Shown piece after piece: positions 46,554-52,855 of a stretch of DNA of 64,000 nucleotides. The stretch is from Nocardia sp. BSTN01 (lineage in GTDB: Bacteria; Actinomycetota; Actinomycetes; Mycobacteriales; Mycobacteriaceae), in NCBI RefSeq assembly GCF_015354405.1, contig NZ_JADKYP010000037.1, positions 1 through 64,000 on the forward strand. Direction: 5' to 3'. The notes under the pieces were generated by a model. It made no database searches. It was not told the DNA's origin and saw only the letters and a program-made list of their open reading frames with translations. How positions within the stretch are numbered: the first letter of the stretch is position 1; each line of letters starts with the position of its first letter. A program made the position numbers and the translations under genes.

Positions 46554-47507
46554 GTGAGCACACAGGGAGCATCCGCAGTCGGCTTGGCGACGGTGACCGC
46601 GAACGGGACGGTCCTCGACACCTGGTACCCATATCCGGAACTGGGCACGTTCGAGACGTCCGAGACCACGCGGCTGAGCCCGGCCGACGCCGAATACGCA
46701 CGCTTCGCCGATCTGGTCGGCCCCGACGAGGCCCGCCGGGTCGAGGTCGTCGCGGTGCGCACCACGATCGCGGACCTGTCGGCGCCGCCGATCGACACCC
46801 ACGACGAATATTTGCGCCTGCACCTGCTCTCCCACCGTCTGGTCCGGCCGCACGGACTCAGCCTGGAGGGACAGTTCGGACTGCTGGCCAACGTGGTGTG
46901 GACCAATCACGGTCCGTGCGCGGTCGAGGACTTCGAGCTGGTGCGCGCGAAGTTGCGCGCCCGCGGTCCGGTCACCGTCTACGGCGTCGACAAATTCCCC
47001 CGCATGGTCGACTATGTGCTGCCCGCCGGCGTCCGTATCGCCGACGCGGACCGGGTGCGGCTGGGCGCGCATCTGGCCGAGGGCACCACGGTCATGCACG
47101 AGGGTTTCGTGAACTTCAACGCCGGCACACTCGGCGCCTCCATGGTCGAGGGCCGTATCTCGGCCGGTGTGGTGGTCGGCGACGGTTCCGATGTCGGCGG
47201 CGGCGCGTCCATCATGGGCACCCTGTCCGGTGGCGGTAAGCAGGTCATCTCGATCGGCGAGCGCTGCCTGCTCGGCGCCAACGCCGGCCTGGGCATCTCG
47301 CTGGGCGACGATTGCGTCGTCGAGGCCGGCCTCTACGTCACGGCGGGCACCAAGGTCGCCCTGCCGGACGGCCGCACGATCAAGGCCGCCGAACTGTCCG
47401 GACAGTCGAATCTGCTGTTCCGCCGCAACTCGCTGACCGGCAGCGTCGAGGTGGTCGCCCGCAAGGGCACCGGCATCGAACTCAACGCGGCCCTACACGC
47501 GAACTGA
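46554..47507 (+). CDS. dapD: Tetrahydrodipicolinate N-succinyltransferase
   Basis: This is a 317-residue enzyme succinylating tetrahydrodipicolinate in the diaminopimelate pathway. The actinobacterial type is clear: [54 protein letters not shown], and the left-handed beta-helix with hexapeptide turns ([40 protein letters not shown]). It acts as a trimer with succinyl-CoA. The GTG at 46554 aligns with mycobacterial DapD; the longer upstream reading overlaps the dapE promoter and is rejected. Confidence 0.96.
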
Positions 47508-47544
47508 TCCGACGCGAAACCTCCCTTGTCGCCCGGGTTGAGCA

Positions 47545-47578
47545 GGTGACGTACCGGCGACGCCGTCGGCACGTCACC
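47545..47578. terminator. Hairpin between dapD and the XRE operon
   Basis: Stem GGTGACGTACCG (47545-47556) with CGGCACGTCACC (47567-47578), one internal mismatch, and a 10-base loop. There is no clear T-tract; it probably terminates the convergent dapD and XRE transcripts. The rest of 47508-47644 shows nothing else. Confidence 0.55.
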
Positions 47579-47644
47579 GTCCTCGGGCTGTGGCATCAGC
47601 AGACAGGGCGCTCGGCGAGCCAGGTCGGACGATAGCCACGCGGC

Positions 47645-48466
47645 TCAACTCCGGTTCATGGCGCGGGCGATGGTGGCGCGTGCTCGGTCGCCGTAGATCG
47701 CCTGGGTTTGCAGGGCCGTCCAAGCCTTCTCGTAGTAGGCGAGTTCTCGTGGCTGAGTGATGGTGAGCTCCGCGGCAATTGTTTCCACCAACACTGTCCG
47801 ACGGTCGTGAATGACGAAGTTCGTTGTCGTATAGACGAACTCGGCACCGGTGGGAACGATGCCCACGACGAGTCTGGACAGTTCCATCAGCTCGAGAAGA
47901 TGCCGTAACTGATCGAGTCGGACCGCGTCGTCTCCGACTCCGGTATACAGCGCGGGTTCACCGATCAGATAGTGGAATTGATGTGCGCCCTCGGTCAGGA
48001 TCTTCTGCCGCTGCATGCGAGCCTCGAGCGCCTCGCTCAAATCATCGGGACTGCCGACGAAGTCGATGCAGCGTCGCAGAATGATCTCCGCGTACGCTCG
48101 GGTCTGCAACAGGCCAGAGGGGATCAGCGGACCGTATCCACGGATGAGCCTGGTGCCGGATTCGTGTTCGATACTCGCTCGCTGTCGGCGGGCGTGGCCG
48201 GTATCGGTGATTCGCTTCCACTCGAGGTAGGCGGCGTGAATGTTGGCGGCAGTCGCGATGAGATCCGGGAGCGCTAAGTCGGCATCAGTAATCCGGCACC
48301 AGGTGCGCAGGTCGGAGTCGGACGGAAGCTGCCGGCCGTTCTCGATCTTGGGAACCTTCGATTGTGCCCATCCCGCCTCGTGAGCCAGAGCGGTACCGGT
48401 AAGGCCCGCCTGCTTGCGAAGTTCGCGCAGGCGGGCCCCCAGTGCTCGACGGGCATCATCACTCAT
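47645..48466 (-). CDS. XRE-family regulator with DUF5753 domain
   Basis: This is a 273-residue protein with an N-terminal XRE helix-turn-helix (ARLRELRKQAGLTGTALAHE, then AGWAQSKVPKIENGRQLPS) and a C-terminal DUF5753 region (SGLLQTRAYAEIILRRCIDF, later YTTTNFVIHDRRTVLVETIA). This is the Scr1-like group, abundant in actinobacteria and normally paired with DUF397 or DUF6879 small proteins; such modules act in developmental or antitoxin-like regulation. The ATG at 48466 follows the DUF6879 stop by 2 bases, so they are one operon. Codon and base composition is less GC-extreme than the core genes, fitting an accessory origin. Confidence 0.85.
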   Translation of the reverse strand: MSDDARRALGARLRELRKQAGLTGTALAHEAGWAQSKVPKIENGRQLPSDSDLRTWCRITDADLALPDLIATAANIHAAYLEWKRITDTGHARRQRASIEHESGTRLIRGYGPLIPSGLLQTRAYAEIILRRCIDFVGSPDDLSEALEARMQRQKILTEGAHQFHYLIGEPALYTGVGDDAVRLDQLRHLLELMELSRLVVGIVPTGAEFVYTTTNFVIHDRRTVLVETIAAELTITQPRELAYYEKAWTALQTQAIYGDRARATIARAMNRS

Positions 48467-48468
48467 AG

Positions 48469-48990
48469 TCACGTCCGGAAATGCTCGTGGGATACGGATT
48501 TGTGCCACACACGATCCCACAGAGCACAGGCGTAACCCACAATCTGGGCATCGCTCGTTGCGGCGACACCAGACCACCAGCCGTCCGCGTCGAACACGCT
48601 GTAAGCCACGGTGTGGTCATCGATCAGCCAAAAGTCGTCGGCTGCGGCGTCGGCCCGATCCGCATGGTCTCGGGCGAGCCACCGCACATCCTCGCCCGCC
48701 TCGAGGTTGTGCGGAGTCAGCGCAATCAGGTAACGCGTGTAGTCGGTGGGCGGCACGGACACGATGCGCGCACGTTGCACGGCGACACCTCGGCCCACCA
48801 GATCGGTGACGGTGCGGGCCCATGGATCGAACCAGGCGCCGCCGGGATCGTCGATCTCCCCGTCCAGAAACTGCCGCATCGCGGAATGCTCGGAGTCCGA
48901 GCGGTATTCGTCTCGCGTCTCAAGGTGACACGCACGAATTGTCGCAAGTCCGAGCAGTTCCGGAAGCTCGGTACGGCTGTACAGACGCAT
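48469..48990 (-). CDS. DUF6879-family protein
   Basis: This is a 173-residue cytosolic protein with no signal peptide or membrane segment. Features typical of DUF6879 are the N-terminal ACHLETRDEYRSDSE, WFDPWARTVTDLVGRGVAVQ, SVPPTDYTRYLIAL and FWLIDDHTVAYSVFDADGWW. These proteins occur almost only next to XRE-DUF5753 regulators and are presumed partners; the activity is unknown. The ATG at 48990 directly follows the TAG of the small upstream gene, so all three are co-translated. Confidence 0.75.
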   Translation of the reverse strand: MRLYSRTELPELLGLATIRACHLETRDEYRSDSEHSAMRQFLDGEIDDPGGAWFDPWARTVTDLVGRGVAVQRARIVSVPPTDYTRYLIALTPHNLEAGEDVRWLARDHADRADAAADDFWLIDDHTVAYSVFDADGWWSGVAATSDAQIVGYACALWDRVWHKSVSHEHFRT

Positions 48991-49296
48991 CTACCGAGCC
49001 CCCTGGACGAGCGCAATCTCGACGGCGGCCTCATGACCCGGAATATTCATGATCTCCAACGCTTCCGCGTCATCGACAAGATCACCTCGGACGAGGTAAG
49101 TGCCGCAACCTGTGTCTTCGAAGGCCGGAAACCGGGTGCCCGGAACGGCGAAGCTCAACAGCTCGTGCGGAATCTCGACACACGCGTCCTCTCCAGTTCG
49201 GTACCCCTGGATCACGATGCGCTGCTGATCGTCGGGCTGCCACAACCGGGGAGACCCGCCATCGCCGCTACCGCCGCCGATGAAAGTTACTCGCAT
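48991..49296 (-). CDS. Small protein of the DUF6879/XRE operon
   Basis: This is a 101-residue acidic protein, first gene of the operon. It opens MRVTFIGGGSGDGGSPRLW and contains RIVIQGYRTGEDACVEIPHE and CGTYLVRGDLVDDAEALEIM. Short genes of this appearance usually precede DUF6879; no function is known. The ATG at 49296 is taken as start; an ATG at 49311 is in frame. The upstream AT-rich segment (about 49320-49395) is shared with the divergent microprotein operon. Confidence 0.6.
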   Translation of the reverse strand: MRVTFIGGGSGDGGSPRLWQPDDQQRIVIQGYRTGEDACVEIPHELLSFAVPGTRFPAFEDTGCGTYLVRGDLVDDAEALEIMNIPGHEAAVEIALVQGAR

Positions 49297-49372
49297 GTGA
49301 GGTCCAATCATTCTTGAAGGATCGGTACATACGCAACATTAACGCCTTTCAGGGCTATATTCTAGGCTCTGT

Positions 49373-49549
49373 ATGAGAATAGTCGAGAATATTCCTTGCG
49401 GTTGGGCGATTCCGATTCTTACGGTCGAACCACCCCGGCGCCGGGTGGTCGCCGATCCGGCGCATCGGTGCTCGAACGGCCGGCACCGACGGTCTCAGCC
49501 CCGGCGCCGGGTGATGTCAATCCACGATTCCTGGAGGATGCCACCGTGA
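49373..49549 (+). CDS. Microprotein ORF 1 of the divergent operon (58 aa)
   Basis: This ORF runs from ATG 49373 to TGA 49549. It begins MRIVENIPCGWAIPILTVEP and ends in a basic stretch (RHRRSQPRRRVMSIHDSWR). TATTCT and TAGGCT -10-like hexamers lie just upstream. It is linked to the next ORF by a GTGA overlap, which is the chief argument that it is translated. No family is recognised; it may act mainly as a coupled leader. Confidence 0.4.
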   Translation: MRIVENIPCGWAIPILTVEPPRRRVVADPAHRCSNGRHRRSQPRRRVMSIHDSWRMPP

Positions 49550-49650
49550 TAACCGAGGAATCGAGCGCACCTCGAAACTCGGTCGGTCGAACACACCGAC
49601 CCACCACTGTCACCTGGACCCGTATCGACGTATCGGAGCGATGCTCGTGA
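49546..49650 (+). CDS. Microprotein ORF 2 of the divergent operon (34 aa)
   Basis: This is a 34-codon frame from GTG 49546, with GGAGG 8 bases upstream, to TGA 49650. It is polar (ITEESSAPRNSVGRTHRPTT) without a recognised domain. Its GTG overlaps the previous stop, and its own TGA overlaps the GTG of the membrane microprotein. The strong ribosome site is what sets it apart from a chance frame. Confidence 0.45.
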   Translation: MITEESSAPRNSVGRTHRPTTVTWTRIDVSERCS

Positions 49651-49787
49651 TCTGGCTCCTGGTCGGCAGCATTCTTCTTTCGATCGCGATCTACGCAGCG
49701 ATCGTCTGCTGGCCTCAGCGGATCCCGAAAGTTCGCAGGCTGCAGGGGGTTCGATGCACATCCGGAGTGAAGAGCGATGAACGGTAG
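49647..49787 (+). CDS. Membrane microprotein (46 aa)
   Basis: This frame starts with GTG 49647 (GTGA overlap with the upstream stop, GGAG 8 bases before) or ATG 49641. It encodes one clear transmembrane helix, IWLLVGSILLSIAIYAAIV, followed by a basic tail (PQRIPKVRRLQ) and a cysteine. Small single-helix proteins like this can be toxins of type I-like systems, regulators of membrane enzymes, or phage-defence parts. None of these can be chosen from sequence. Confidence 0.6.
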   Translation: MIWLLVGSILLSIAIYAAIVCWPQRIPKVRRLQGVRCTSGVKSDER

Positions 49788-50157
49788 CCGAACTTGCGCT
49801 GCAGACGACGAACCCGACTCGCGCGCAATGGCTTACGTCTGCGTCGACCTGATCGAGACCATGACCGATGTCGATCGGGCCGCACGGCAGGTCGCGGCAC
49901 GGCTCGGATACGTCTACCTCGGAATGACGAAGAGCAGCAGCCTCATCGCCCCCGAGGTATTGCCCGATCACATCAGGACGCACGAGGTCGAGCTGCTGAT
50001 CGTGCCCGACATGGCGCACCTGCGCGGCAAGGTCCCACCCGAGCTTGCCGAGATCACCGACATCCACGATCTGGCGACCGGCCATACCTACGAGCGGGAG
50101 GGCGCGTACGCACCCGATGAGGGGCACCGGCCGAACCCGTTGACAGCACCGTCATGA
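49777..50157 (+). CDS. Unknown protein with weak resolvase-like layout
   Basis: This is a 126-residue cytosolic protein; ATG 49777 has GGAG upstream and overlaps the previous gene by 11 bases. The pattern AYVCVDLIETMTDVDRAARQ, LGYVYLGM and VELLIVPDMAHLRGKVPPEL is reminiscent of the beta-alpha-beta core of serine recombinase N-domains, but the catalytic Ser position (normally AYxRVS) would be Asp and no DNA-binding part follows. I consider it an unknown with that faint likeness. The next start overlaps its stop as ATGA. Confidence 0.55.
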   Translation: MNGSRTCAADDEPDSRAMAYVCVDLIETMTDVDRAARQVAARLGYVYLGMTKSSSLIAPEVLPDHIRTHEVELLIVPDMAHLRGKVPPELAEITDIHDLATGHTYEREGAYAPDEGHRPNPLTAPS

Positions 50158-50381
50158 AACCCGCACTGCCACAACGTCGCCCGTCAGTAGAAGTCGAAGC
50201 GAGCTGGTCTGCGAGTCTCGCACTGCTGGACAGCCTGCTCGCTGCCCTACGTGCATGGCAGCCCGGCCGCGTGTCACCCGCTGCTCCGACCGAACAGGAC
50301 ATCGCCGGAATCGGGACGGGCCGCATCCAAACCGTATGTAGGCCGAACGGGATGAATCGGTCACTTTGGGGAGGAAGTCAT
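50154..50381 (+). other. In-frame coupled extension upstream of the secreted protein
   Basis: An ATG at 50154 overlaps the previous TGA (ATGA) and opens a frame (MKPALPQRRPSVEVEASWSA) that runs without a stop into the signal peptide of the secreted protein at 50382. Either a 177-residue long form with internal signal-like helix is also made, or this is a decayed small gene that lost its stop. Confidence 0.4.
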
Positions 50382-50687
50382 ATGCACGTGCGGAAGTTCA
50401 TTGTCGCCATAGCCCTGCCACTGGCTGTCGGCGCCGGATTGGCTGGGTCAGCCACCGCGTCGGCGTTGCCGACGGACACCGCGCCGAACGTGACCCACGC
50501 GGATCCGATCGCTCGCTACACCGCTACCGTGAAGTGCCAGTTGGTCAAGCACGGGGGCGAAGCGCAGGGATATATCACCGGAACTGGGTCCGGGAAGACC
50601 AAGCCGGACGCGGTTGCTGCAGCGAAGAAGGACGCTGATCGTAGCGTCCCACAGGGCTACTACAAGCGTCATTGCAAGGAGATCTGA
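50382..50687 (+). CDS. Small secreted protein
   Basis: This is a 101-residue protein with a Sec signal peptide (MHVRKFIVAIALPLAVGAGL ending at ATASA) and a small mature domain with two cysteines (TVKCQLVKHGG and YYKRHCKEI) that may pair. Gly/Lys-rich text (YITGTGSGKTKPDAVAAA) lies between. The ATG has GGAGG 8 bases upstream, clearly a start in its own right. Function is unknown; its presence in an operon of cytosolic and membrane microproteins suggests an exported effector or sensor. Confidence 0.7.
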   Translation: MHVRKFIVAIALPLAVGAGLAGSATASALPTDTAPNVTHADPIARYTATVKCQLVKHGGEAQGYITGTGSGKTKPDAVAAAKKDADRSVPQGYYKRHCKEI

Positions 50688-50690
50688 CAG

Positions 50691-50930
50691 ATGCCGGACG
50701 AGAAAAGGCTGTGGGAAATCCGTCTGGGAGTTATCGCCTCGCAGGCGGAAGCACGAGAGGTCGCCGCGCAGATCGAGCGACTTCTTTGCCCGGACCCTGA
50801 CCATGCGCCGCCGTGCCCGATCCCGTGGAGCCTCAGTGTCGATGCCGAGGATGAGATGACCACGGACCGTCGAGCGGAATACGACGATGTGGTGGAGCAG
50901 TATCGGATCGAGTCCGGAATGAGTCAGTAG
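50691..50930 (+). CDS. Unknown 79-residue protein, last gene of the microprotein operon
   Basis: This is a cytosolic, helical-looking protein: MPDEKRLWEIRLGVIASQAE, RLLCPDPDHAPPCPIPWSLS and an acidic end (YDDVVEQYRIESG). AAGGAG lies upstream and the start follows the previous stop by 3 bases. It has no recognised family. The CPD...PPC pair could bind a metal or form a disulfide, though the protein has no export signal. Confidence 0.6.
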   Translation: MPDEKRLWEIRLGVIASQAEAREVAAQIERLLCPDPDHAPPCPIPWSLSVDAEDEMTTDRRAEYDDVVEQYRIESGMSQ

Positions 50931-50944
50931 TCGGAGCGAACGCG

Positions 50945-50981
50945 GCGAAGCGCCCCACCCGGGCCAGGTGGGGCGTTTCGC
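50945..50981. terminator. Bidirectional terminator
   Basis: Stem of 15 base pairs (50945-50959 with 50967-50981, one G-T pair) around a 7-base loop lies between the convergent microprotein operon and the PPOX gene. The plus-strand side ends in GTTTCGC. Confidence 0.75.
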
Positions 50982-50990
50982 GTATGCGCC

Positions 50991-51362
50991 CTAGTCGATG
51001 CCGAAGGCCAGCACGCGCTGCGGGGTGATGCGGATCAGCTCGCGCGAACCGCCCTCGAGGTAGGTGTCCACATCCCGCAAAGACTGTGCCACACCGCGGA
51101 TTTCGAGGCAGCGCACCTGCCACGGATTCACCGAGGCGATATCGTCGACGACGAAGGCGACCCGCTCCTCCTTGCCGAGGTTGCGGAACTTCTGCGAGGC
51201 GCCCATGTTGTGGCCGGCGATATCGATGGTTCCGAGCGCTTCGTTGTAGCGGAAACCCACCGGATTGTTCTGCGGCGATCCGTCCGGGCGGATGGTGGCC
51301 AGCCGACCCAGGCGTTGGCCCGCCAGATACTCGATCTGGGCTGCAGACAGCGTTGCGATCAT
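50991..51362 (-). CDS. PPOX-class F420-dependent oxidoreductase-like protein
   Basis: This is a 123-residue split-barrel flavin/deazaflavin-binding protein. RLGRLATIRPDGSPQNNPVG and the second strand set FRNLGKEERVAFVVDDIASV fit the PPOX-class group that in actinobacteria mostly uses F420 as the reductant; several mycobacterial relatives are of unknown substrate. The length matches a one-domain dimer. FbiC, needed for F420, is encoded in the same window. It is a monocistronic gene behind fadD36 in the same orientation. Confidence 0.8.
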   Translation of the reverse strand: MIATLSAAQIEYLAGQRLGRLATIRPDGSPQNNPVGFRYNEALGTIDIAGHNMGASQKFRNLGKEERVAFVVDDIASVNPWQVRCLEIRGVAQSLRDVDTYLEGGSRELIRITPQRVLAFGID

Positions 51363-51430
51363 GCGCCGACCTTAGAACCTCGAGTGCGGTACAGGTCAAC
51401 CCGGCACGTTCCCGGGACCGGATCGACGTG

Positions 51431-52855
51431 TCAGCGCAACTGTTTCTTCTGCACCTTGCCCATCGCGTTGCGCGGCAGTTCGGTCACCATCAGCACCTCG
51501 CGCGGTCGTTTGTGCACCGAGAGCTGCTGGGCGACGAAATCGATCAGTTCGCGCTCCGAAATCGGGGTGTCGGCGCGCGGCACGACGTAGGCCCGGATGC
51601 GCTGCCCCAGATCCGCGTCCTCGATCCCCACCACCGCGACCTCGGCCACACTCGGGTGGCCGAGCAGGCAGGTTTCGACCTCGCCCGCCCCGACGCGATA
51701 CCCACCGGATTTGATCAGATCCACCGATTCCCGCCCGACGATGCGATGGAATCCCTCGGCGTCGATCGCCGCCACATCGCCGGTGACGAACCAGCCGTCC
51801 TCGGTCCAGCTCTCGGCGGTGGCCTCCGGACGGCCGAGATAGCCTTCGAACAACATGGGACCGCGCACCTGCAGTCCGCCGATACTCTCGCCGTCATGCG
51901 GAACCGGCGCTCCCGCCTCGTCGCGCAACCGGGTCTGCACACCCGCCACCGGCAGGCCGACCCAGCCAGGCCGGCGCTCGCCGTCGGCCCGCGTGGACAG
52001 AGTGATCATGGTTTCGCTCATGCCGTAACGCTCCACCGGCGCCTGCCCGGTCAGCTCACGCAGCCGTTCGAAGACCGGAACCGGCAGCGGCGCACTGCCT
52101 GAGACCAGCAGCCGGGCATTCGCCAATTCCTTTGCGGCACCGGGGTCTTCGGCAATTCGCGACCAGACCGTCGGCACGCCGAAGTACAGGGTGCCGGGCG
52201 CGGCCGCATAGGCGGCGGGCGTGGGTTTGCCGGTGTGCACGAGCGGGCTTCCCACCCGCAGCGGCCCGAGCACGCCGAGGATCAGCCCGTGCACGTGGAA
52301 CAGCGGAAGCCCATGCACCAGAACATCTTTCGAGGTCCACGACCACACCTCGAACAGCGCGTCGAGACCGGCCGCGATGGCGCCGCGACTGAGCACGACC
52401 CCCTTGGGCGCACCCGTGGTCCCCGAGGTGTAGAGGATGAAAGCCGTGGTGTTCGCGGCCGGTTCGGGATGGCTGTGCCAGGAGCGGGCGTGTTTACGCA
52501 CCGGAATCACCGGCAGCGTGGGGTTGTCCGGCGCCGCACCGAGCCAGGCCCGCGCACCGGAATCGGCGAGGATGTGGTCCAGCTCGGCCGACCCCGCATC
52601 CGGCGGCACCGGCACGGCGGCGACCCCGGCGATGAGGCAGCCGAGGATTCCCAGCACGGTGGTGGCGGTCGGGCGGGCGAGAATCGCGACGCGGCCGGCC
52701 CCGGCGACGCGTTCGGCCACCGAGGTCGCGGCGCCGACCAGATCACTGCGCGACAGCGTCTCACCGTCGATGGTGACCGCATCGGGAATGTCGTAGCCGG
52801 CGGACACGGCAGCCGGATTGAGCGAGGGCAACAGCGGCAGCGAACCGTAGGACAT
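51431..52855 (-). CDS. fadD36: Acyl-CoA synthetase FadD36
   Basis: This is a 474-residue ANL enzyme, shorter than typical FadD. It has the P-loop FILYTSGTTGAPKGVVLSRG, YGMSETMITLSTRADGERRP, the motif WFVTGDVAAIDAEGFHRIVG, GYRVGAGEVETCLL and the C-terminal Lys in ELPRNAMGKVQKKQL. Length and pattern match mycobacterial FadD36 (Rv1193), whose chain-length preference is not settled; malonyl- or medium-chain activity has been suggested for such short forms. The ATG at 52855 starts the conserved SYGSLPLLPSL. It fills the Rv1193 position between dapD and the proline genes. Confidence 0.88.
   Translation of the reverse strand: MSYGSLPLLPSLNPAAVSAGYDIPDAVTIDGETLSRSDLVGAATSVAERVAGAGRVAILARPTATTVLGILGCLIAGVAAVPVPPDAGSAELDHILADSGARAWLGAAPDNPTLPVIPVRKHARSWHSHPEPAANTTAFILYTSGTTGAPKGVVLSRGAIAAGLDALFEVWSWTSKDVLVHGLPLFHVHGLILGVLGPLRVGSPLVHTGKPTPAAYAAAPGTLYFGVPTVWSRIAEDPGAAKELANARLLVSGSAPLPVPVFERLRELTGQAPVERYGMSETMITLSTRADGERRPGWVGLPVAGVQTRLRDEAGAPVPHDGESIGGLQVRGPMLFEGYLGRPEATAESWTEDGWFVTGDVAAIDAEGFHRIVGRESVDLIKSGGYRVGAGEVETCLLGHPSVAEVAVVGIEDADLGQRIRAYVVPRADTPISERELIDFVAQQLSVHKRPREVLMVTELPRNAMGKVQKKQLR

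Follow-up and report, generated by a model that had tools for sequence, protein, structure and literature searches.

The window analyzed here is a stretch of 64,000 nucleotides (positions 1 to 64,000 of contig NZ_JADKYP010000037.1) from Nocardia sp. BSTN01, whose genome comprises 7.8 Mb in 206 contigs. It contains a leftward operon for an XRE-DUF5753 protein, a DUF6879 protein and a protein of 106 amino acids (aa), followed on the opposite strand by a rightward series of small open reading frames (ORFs). All of them lie between a gene that we take, from its sequence, to be dapD-like (end at 47507) and a presumably PPOX-like gene (50991-51362, minus strand). We investigated this locus as a candidate functional module and compared it with other loci (L numbers) and genomes (G numbers). 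Its features are as follows.

47645..48466, minus strand: XRE-DUF5753 transcriptional regulator, 273 aa (Pfam DUF5753 5e-34 and HTH_31 2e-15, in a scan that included 3 additional leading residues)
48469..48990, minus strand: DUF6879 protein, 173 aa (Pfam DUF6879 8e-49)
48991..49311, minus strand: o106, 106 aa, which usually stands upstream of DUF6879 as its partner (not assigned to a Pfam family)
49375..49394, no strand assigned: tandem 10-bp direct repeat GAGAATAGTC/GAGAATATTC, a candidate operator
49373..49650, plus strand: ORF1 and ORF2, judged to be leader and not genes by comparison with N. aobensis L034
49424..49520, plus strand: conserved leader hairpin (arms 49434-49445 and 49500-49511, with 54 nt between the arms)
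49647..49787, plus strand: o3 (ORF3), single-helix microprotein of 46 aa (48 aa from the ATG at 49641), with a basic tail and a WPQRIPK motif
49777..50157, plus strand: o4 (ORF4), 126 aa, degenerate serine-recombinase-like protein (dN/dS 0.26; 18 aligned homologues including itself)
50154..50306, plus strand: o5 (ORF5), conserved first 51 codons (matches in L034, L035, L036, L037, L039 and L040)
50382..50687, plus strand: o6 (ORF6), 101-aa secreted protein with a signal peptide by eye and two Cys, an exchangeable tail gene
50691..50930, plus strand: o7 (ORF7), 79 aa, an exchangeable tail gene (replaced by a 91-aa protein in L034, L035, L041 and L042)

Coding capacity of the rightward strand

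The preliminary description of the locus had presented the rightward ORFs as six or seven tiny coupled genes. The ORFs and their overlaps were found at the positions it gave, and the 46-aa helix protein, the 126-aa and 79-aa ORFs and the 101-aa ORF with two Cys were confirmed. ORF1 and ORF2 failed as genes in the comparison with L034. ORF6 and ORF7 had no close match in the other fetched loci. For the comparison, the same locus of N. aobensis (L034) was used, which is 89.3% identical over 48939-50307. ORF1 (49373-49549, 58 aa) has lost its start in L034, where ATG reads ATA, codon 5 is an in-frame stop and the frame is shifted by 1 bp; its ratio of nonsynonymous to synonymous substitution rates (dN/dS) was 1.89. 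ORF2 (49546-49650, 34 aa from GTG) drifts, with a dN/dS of 1.07 that rests on few changes (16 nt). By the same measure, ORF4 (0.26), codons 1-51 of ORF5 (0.31), o106 (0.56) and ORF3 (0.60, on few changes, 17 nt) were constrained. Codon scores were negative for ORF1 and ORF2, and since they were also negative for the conserved ORF3 and ORF5, the codon test decides nothing on the former two. The lost start, the stop, the frameshift and the two dN/dS values led us to reject both as genes and to judge that this segment is probably a leader over the conserved hairpin.

The density of the overlaps had been considered beyond chance. When ORFs of at least 30 aa were linked on both strands, the 64-kb window contained 15 maximal chains of at least four ORFs, real operons among them, and four of the 15 held at least six ORFs, including the chain at 49373-50930. 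Such chains are common in GC-rich DNA, and coupling was therefore rejected as standalone evidence. The idea of a fixed set of seven ORFs was also rejected, since ORF1 and ORF2 are leader and ORF6 and ORF7 are swapped in the sister species for another secreted and another small protein. Nor do the seven travel with the DUF6879 and XRE genes, as a DUF6879-type operon was present at 4 of the 18 loci that carry o4, the window included. What remained of the proposed module was its core: regulator and microprotein operons recur head-to-head, and no described match to them was found.

The hairpin and its surroundings across Nocardia

The arm CCCGGCGCCGGG of the leader hairpin occurs twice in the 64 kb, both copies belonging to this hairpin, compared with 0.08 expected. 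Seven other ORF4 loci have arms of the type CCCCGCCGCCGGG...CCCGGCGGCGGG around a short loop; the letters differ from those of the window, but the pairing is alike. The pattern of this other arm type gave no match in the genome of BSTN01 itself. A covariance model from those seven loci (R1) produced 140 matches in 43 of 59 genomes of the genus at E ≤ 0.01, with 0 to 12 per genome; the highest number was found in G044, a genome of 6.2 Mb. At E ≤ 0.001, R1 missed the window, L034 and L013. These loci were also excluded from the alignment of 92 R1 matches (A4) on which a second model, R2, was built. R2 found the hairpins of the window (33.9 bits, E 2.5e-5 in 383 kb), L034 (31.5 bits, 9.7e-5) and L013 (23.6 bits, 0.0077) in the right place and on the right strand, and the opposite strand of the window scored 19.4 bits. 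The hairpin was detected by R2 at 11 of the 18 o4 loci. Moreover, 8 of 30 DUF6879 loci show it, and some hairpins stand head-to-head with independently found DUF6879 genes, for example at G044:C1:2555197, at G013:C13:7275 and, in the genome of BSTN01, at G000:C136:63989.

The stem covaries. In A4, an alignment fitted to its model and thus favoring pairing, 98.8% of the pair cells were paired, 10 of the 14 pairs were altered on both sides, and 47 cells were double changes, compared with 8.8 in shuffles and 2-4 when the partner was slid by 1-3 columns. G-U cells (77) far exceeded A-C cells (7), a bias of uncertain extent, as the model search itself favors G-U. An excess of this kind points to the paired strand as the one reading into the microproteins, and from this strand bias we infer that the hairpin is part of the mRNA. 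A CCA lying 4-6 nt past the stem (A4 columns 135-137) was near-invariant, being present at its three positions in 89, 92 and 91 of the 92 sequences.

The element appears to be confined almost entirely to the genus. Rfam gave no match at E ≤ 1 for positions 47000-51500 of the window. In a family sample of 201 genomes from 31 genera, the hairpin was found at E ≤ 1e-4 and under strict filters in 10 genomes, which all belong to the same genus as the window; genomes of this genus without a match also occurred. In a class sample, it was found in 4 of 197 genomes and 2 of 90 genera, the second genus being represented by one weak match (4.4e-5).

The surroundings of the hairpin were then compared in 91 contexts, namely the best 92 of the 140 matches minus the R1 seeds L035 and L047 plus L016; L108 and L110 among them were also R1 seeds, some are orthologues, and there were 90 distinct hairpin sequences. 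A divergent regulator-like gene lay within 1.5 kb in 70 of the 91 contexts, 11 of the DUF6879/o106 type and 59 HTH-TPR-like. Of the 91 contexts themselves, 12 supplied seeds for this search, and 57 of the 59 HTH-TPR-like genes matched a seed that came from a different locus (L115 and L120 matched their own seed only). In the control positions, the regulator seeds found 0 sense and 2 antisense genes downstream, and 7 upstream on the strand of the hairpin. In 55 contexts, the strand of the hairpin encoded, at a distance of up to 700 nt, a single-helix microprotein whose helix is followed by W, compared with 0 on the divergent strand and 1 antisense. This count was obtained with the ribosome site dropped and the W required, and it was 25 of 91 when a ribosome site was required. 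Of these microproteins, 46 were in ORFs of at most 75 aa, and 54 sequences gave the helix-region consensus GxvvVvGLPLaVLvaaifWP. An ORF of the o4 family was near the hairpin in 51 contexts on the sense strand and in 0 on the antisense strand. Both microprotein and o4-family ORF were present in 37 contexts, either one in 69, and regulator, microprotein and o4-family ORF together in 33.

Two further proteins recurred by eye. One is a short Cys protein or domain ending in about LVxAGRxxPDxxR, located upstream of o4 in L036 and L037 and past the hairpin in L114, L120, L130 and L152. The other, of 60-85 aa and with a DGxWxVVGxDGWP-like stretch, lies beside the membrane microprotein past the hairpin in L113, L114, L126, L130 and L134.

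The recombinase-like protein and the exchanged regulator half

Together with 17 relatives, o4 makes up a close group, which belongs to a wider one (A5) of 23 sequences. The close group was found in 8 of 119 genomes of the genus (E ≤ 1e-10), and every named genome that carries ORF4 belongs to Nocardia (N. aobensis, N. cerradoensis, N. veterana, N. nova, N. mikamii, N. elegans and N. vermiculata; 15 loci). The wide group was present in 3 of the 197 genomes of the class sample (23, 14 and 11 matches), each of them a member of the own genus, and searches of viral contigs, plasmids and phages did not return o4. Alignment of A5 with serine recombinases of the same genus by hhalign gave 68 collinear columns (probability 86.5, P 4.5e-6); the probability was 85.2 without the o4 group, and a larger set lowered it to 51.7 (P 1.5e-4), the P values being those of single comparisons. 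By profile, o4 is thus collinear with the first part of the serine recombinase domain PF00239, and it differs from it in having neither the catalytic serine, nor the DRLGR motif, nor the second half of the domain. Serine recombinases carry their catalytic serine in the first-strand motif YxRVST; at this position o4 reads YVCVDL, and the DRLGR motif is also replaced.

Other searches did not find this relationship. Pfam does not recognize o4, and its sequence gave only short matches to repeat proteins among solved structures (best 6.7e-5, plant receptor kinases). With the wide alignment, nothing in the solved-structure search was better than 0.036. Neither search listed a recombinase, which speaks mildly against homology to recombinases. 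Because neither Pfam nor the solved structures reveal a recombinase, it is with moderate confidence that we regard o4 as a degenerate recombinase-like protein, corresponding to the first half of the serine-recombinase domain without the catalytic serine.

Upstream of o4, o3 has one hydrophobic helix according to its sequence and a hydropathy filter. Homologues of o3 adjoin o4 in L013, L034, L038-L042, L046 and L047 and, by gene calls, also in L014, L043-L045 and L048. In Pfam, NCBIfam and PHROGs, o3 to o7 gave insignificant matches only.

On the regulator side, the DUF6879 family is present in 45 of 59 genomes of the genus, and o106 accompanied it in 13 of the 14 DUF6879 loci counted (30 were returned, and the 16 on the minus strand were left out). 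A divergent regulator-like gene was found at 15 of the 18 o4 loci: 4 are of the DUF6879 type (the contig of L034 holding o106 and 17 residues of DUF6879 only), 5 of the HTH-TPR type (L039, L040, L041 and L046, with L047 assigned on its 43% identity to L039), and 6 are regulator-like by similarity only (L014, L038, L043, L044, L045 and L035). The remaining 3 (L036, L037 and L048) gave no divergent regulator. Pfam recognized an HTH domain in 14 of the 21 regulators scanned, some of which were shortened by gene calling (window, L039, L040, L041, L046, L109, L111, L112, L113, L115, L116, L118, L128 and L135), and TPR_12 was found at E ≤ 0.001 in L039, L040, L041 and L109.

In two slots, the same core is found with an exchanged regulator half. 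In the first slot, the window is homologous to L034 through 50307 and, after a gap, again from 50951 (93.2%). Compared with L035 of N. cerradoensis, it is 96.2% identical up to 47524, then over 49809-50307 alone (87.6%), and 93.7% identical from 50951. The window and L034 carry the DUF6879 operon in this slot, while L035 carries a different divergent protein, of 435 aa, together with a different recombinase-like gene (109 aa). The 435-aa protein has no Pfam match; it is likely a regulator, given the similarity of its first part to the HTH end of the regulator in L039 (32% across 66 aa, 6.5e-5). The second slot, in L013 of the BSTN01 genome and in L046, lies between a TrwC relaxase (73% aa identity over the portion that aligns) and a large serine recombinase (52%). 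Here o3-o4 are 71% identical in DNA and the regulators differ, being DUF6879/XRE-DUF5753 in L013 (typed by tblastn to the Pfam-recognized proteins of the window) and an HTH protein in L046. The module sits inside this TrwC/large-recombinase slot at L013:512-11231 and L046:1946-11346, and the slot is probably an integrative mobilizable element. A 69-aa protein near the element (L046:548-757) looks to us like DUF397.

Such exchange might also be expected if the hairpin were a DNA element, either two inverted operator half-sites for the regulators or a single-strand recombination or repetitive extragenic palindrome (REP)-like site that spreads cassettes. Each arm is nearly palindromic, and the high GC content of the inverted repeats and their loops of 8 to 67 nt would suit such a site. 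On the other hand, the excess of G-U over A-C favors a transcribed strand, even if model selection may inflate it and single-stranded DNA hairpins tolerate G-T. Variable loop length would be odd for paired operators, one type of element faces different types of regulator, and the homology breaks at 47524, 49809, 50307 and 50951 lie away from the hairpin. We therefore consider a DNA element quite improbable. One leader type goes with different regulators, which argues for a hairpin belonging to the effector side.

The right end of the first slot is exchanged as well. The window carries o6/o7 there, and L034 and L035 carry a secreted protein of a 142-aa type together with the 91-aa protein. The ORF5 frame is open to 50687 with no stop before ORF6. 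Homology at the DNA level breaks off within this frame, at position 50307, which suggests that the present length of ORF5 is a scar of recombination. The 142-aa-type protein occupies the o6 slot in L034, L035, L041 and L042 and was found at 7 distinct loci among those fetched; distant copies of it (36-37%) occur near the DUF6879 genes of L103, L104 and L107. Among the fetched loci, the only match of o6 elsewhere was a weak one (L072, 35%, 1.7e-4) and o7 had none outside its own locus; whole genomes were not searched with either. A peptide-signaling system, in which the HTH-TPR or DUF5753 regulator is the receptor and the microprotein or a secreted tail protein is the signal or an export helper, would fit the HTH-TPR-like regulators at many loci and the secreted protein that follows in the window, L034, L035, L041 and L042. 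We consider it very improbable, as the 142-aa-type protein was found at only these 7 of the fetched loci and no gene for a processed peptide was seen.

Comparison with known systems and interpretation

The regulator half is of a known kind, while the leader, the recombinase-like protein and the microprotein family members that were scanned match nothing significant in Pfam or Rfam. The closest likeness is to WhiJ9-BldB9-iosA of Streptomyces venezuelae. According to the accessible part of the report (PMC10294661), an XRE-DUF5753 protein with a small partner binds direct repeats there and is needed to activate a small effector gene across the direct-repeat intergenic region. As far as this part of the report describes the system, its partner is a DUF397 protein, IosA is predicted to be a 15-kDa cytoplasmic protein and iosA is leaderless, whereas the locus studied here has DUF6879 and o106, a membrane microprotein with a recombinase-like protein, and a conserved hairpin leader. 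DUF397 was not matched by Pfam among the ten locus ORFs. The direct repeat is shared with N. aobensis, in which AGAATATTC occurs twice with the same 10-bp spacing as the repeat at 49375-49394. No published description of the module was found in the literature searched, which covered few subscription papers, included DUF5753/DUF397 and inactive resolvases, and contained no paper on DUF6879.

With its putative mRNA leader, the microprotein also resembles the type I toxins TisB, DinQ and Fst/Ldr, which the accessible literature describes as short single-helix membrane proteins with a structured mRNA leader; it differs from them in that o3 faces a divergent XRE operon and has a protein partner. 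A toxin-antitoxin or abortive-infection system was therefore weighed, in which o3 would depolarize the membrane, the leader would check its translation, XRE with DUF6879/o106 would silence it, and the dead recombinase would be antidote or sensor. A small hydrophobic one-helix protein with a basic tail and a probable structured leader would suit this, and structured, translationally inactive mRNAs of type I toxins are described in the same literature. The patchy spread (o4 in 8 of 119 genomes, 0-12 hairpins per genome) and the copies beside the TrwC relaxase and large serine recombinase would suit it too. However, the ten locus ORFs contain no toxin family of Pfam or NCBIfam. PADLOC matched only the window XRE protein and L041, in both cases at the HTH (HTH_VI, RmrA, capH, control protein), and 8 of 10 proteins had no match. 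Nothing significant for described toxin or defense families was seen in Pfam, NCBIfam and PADLOC beyond the regulators and DUF6879. XRE/DUF397 pairs were once called toxin-antitoxin systems; in S. coelicolor they act as regulators, and overexpressed DUF397 partners of XRE-DUF5753 proteins were non-toxic there, in the part of the study available (PMC10364602), although these are different partners. This tilts the balance from toxin-antitoxin to regulation, and we rate a toxin system as rather unlikely.

The interpretation that we favor, and to which we give close to an even chance, is that of a Nocardia-specific, swap-prone module in which a regulator would switch a hairpin-led membrane microprotein and its dead-recombinase partner, working like WhiJ9-iosA. 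The leftward operon, here XRE-DUF5753, DUF6879 and o106 and elsewhere an HTH-TPR-like protein, would control the divergent promoter. The rightward mRNA would begin with a long leader bearing the GC-rich hairpin and continue with o3, o4 and exchangeable extras, e.g., a small secreted protein. A signal would alter the hold of the regulator on the intergenic repeats and so switch the right-hand operon, and the hairpin may add post-transcriptional control through stability or ribosome access. By analogy, the membrane protein, predicted to be N-out with its basic tail inside, would be the effector, and the dead recombinase may be its cytosolic partner.

Several observations weigh against this interpretation. 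At 7 of the 18 o4 loci, R2 found no hairpin at E ≤ 0.05. Among the 91 contexts, 21 lacked a seed-found regulator, 22 had neither microprotein nor o4-family ORF, and 6 had none of the three. Outside the 14 of 21 regulators with a Pfam HTH, L047, L126 and L130 gave weak TPR matches and L014, L035, L038 and L120 gave neither. In the genome of BSTN01, 11 of the 23 o4-family genes have a divergent regulator and 9 a membrane microprotein, of which two share a single ORF (control 1). About half of these genes thus stand outside a full module. Furthermore, a consensus scan of the plus strand at 49200-49700 gave no promoter-like site.

A bolder form of the favored interpretation, which we regard as a long shot, is that disarmed recombinases turned microprotein partners bind the hairpin of their own mRNA, with regulator and tail cassettes shuffled around them in a genus-specific class of conflict or signaling systems. 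The locus shows that overlapping frames in GC-rich DNA can hide a leader element. Exchange of the regulator at fixed slots makes sensing and switching by XRE/DUF6879 and HTH-TPR proteins testable with one reporter. For Nocardia, a soil genus with some opportunistic pathogens, the analysis adds a lineage-specific, much-copied module with its families of hairpins, putatively disarmed recombinases and microproteins.

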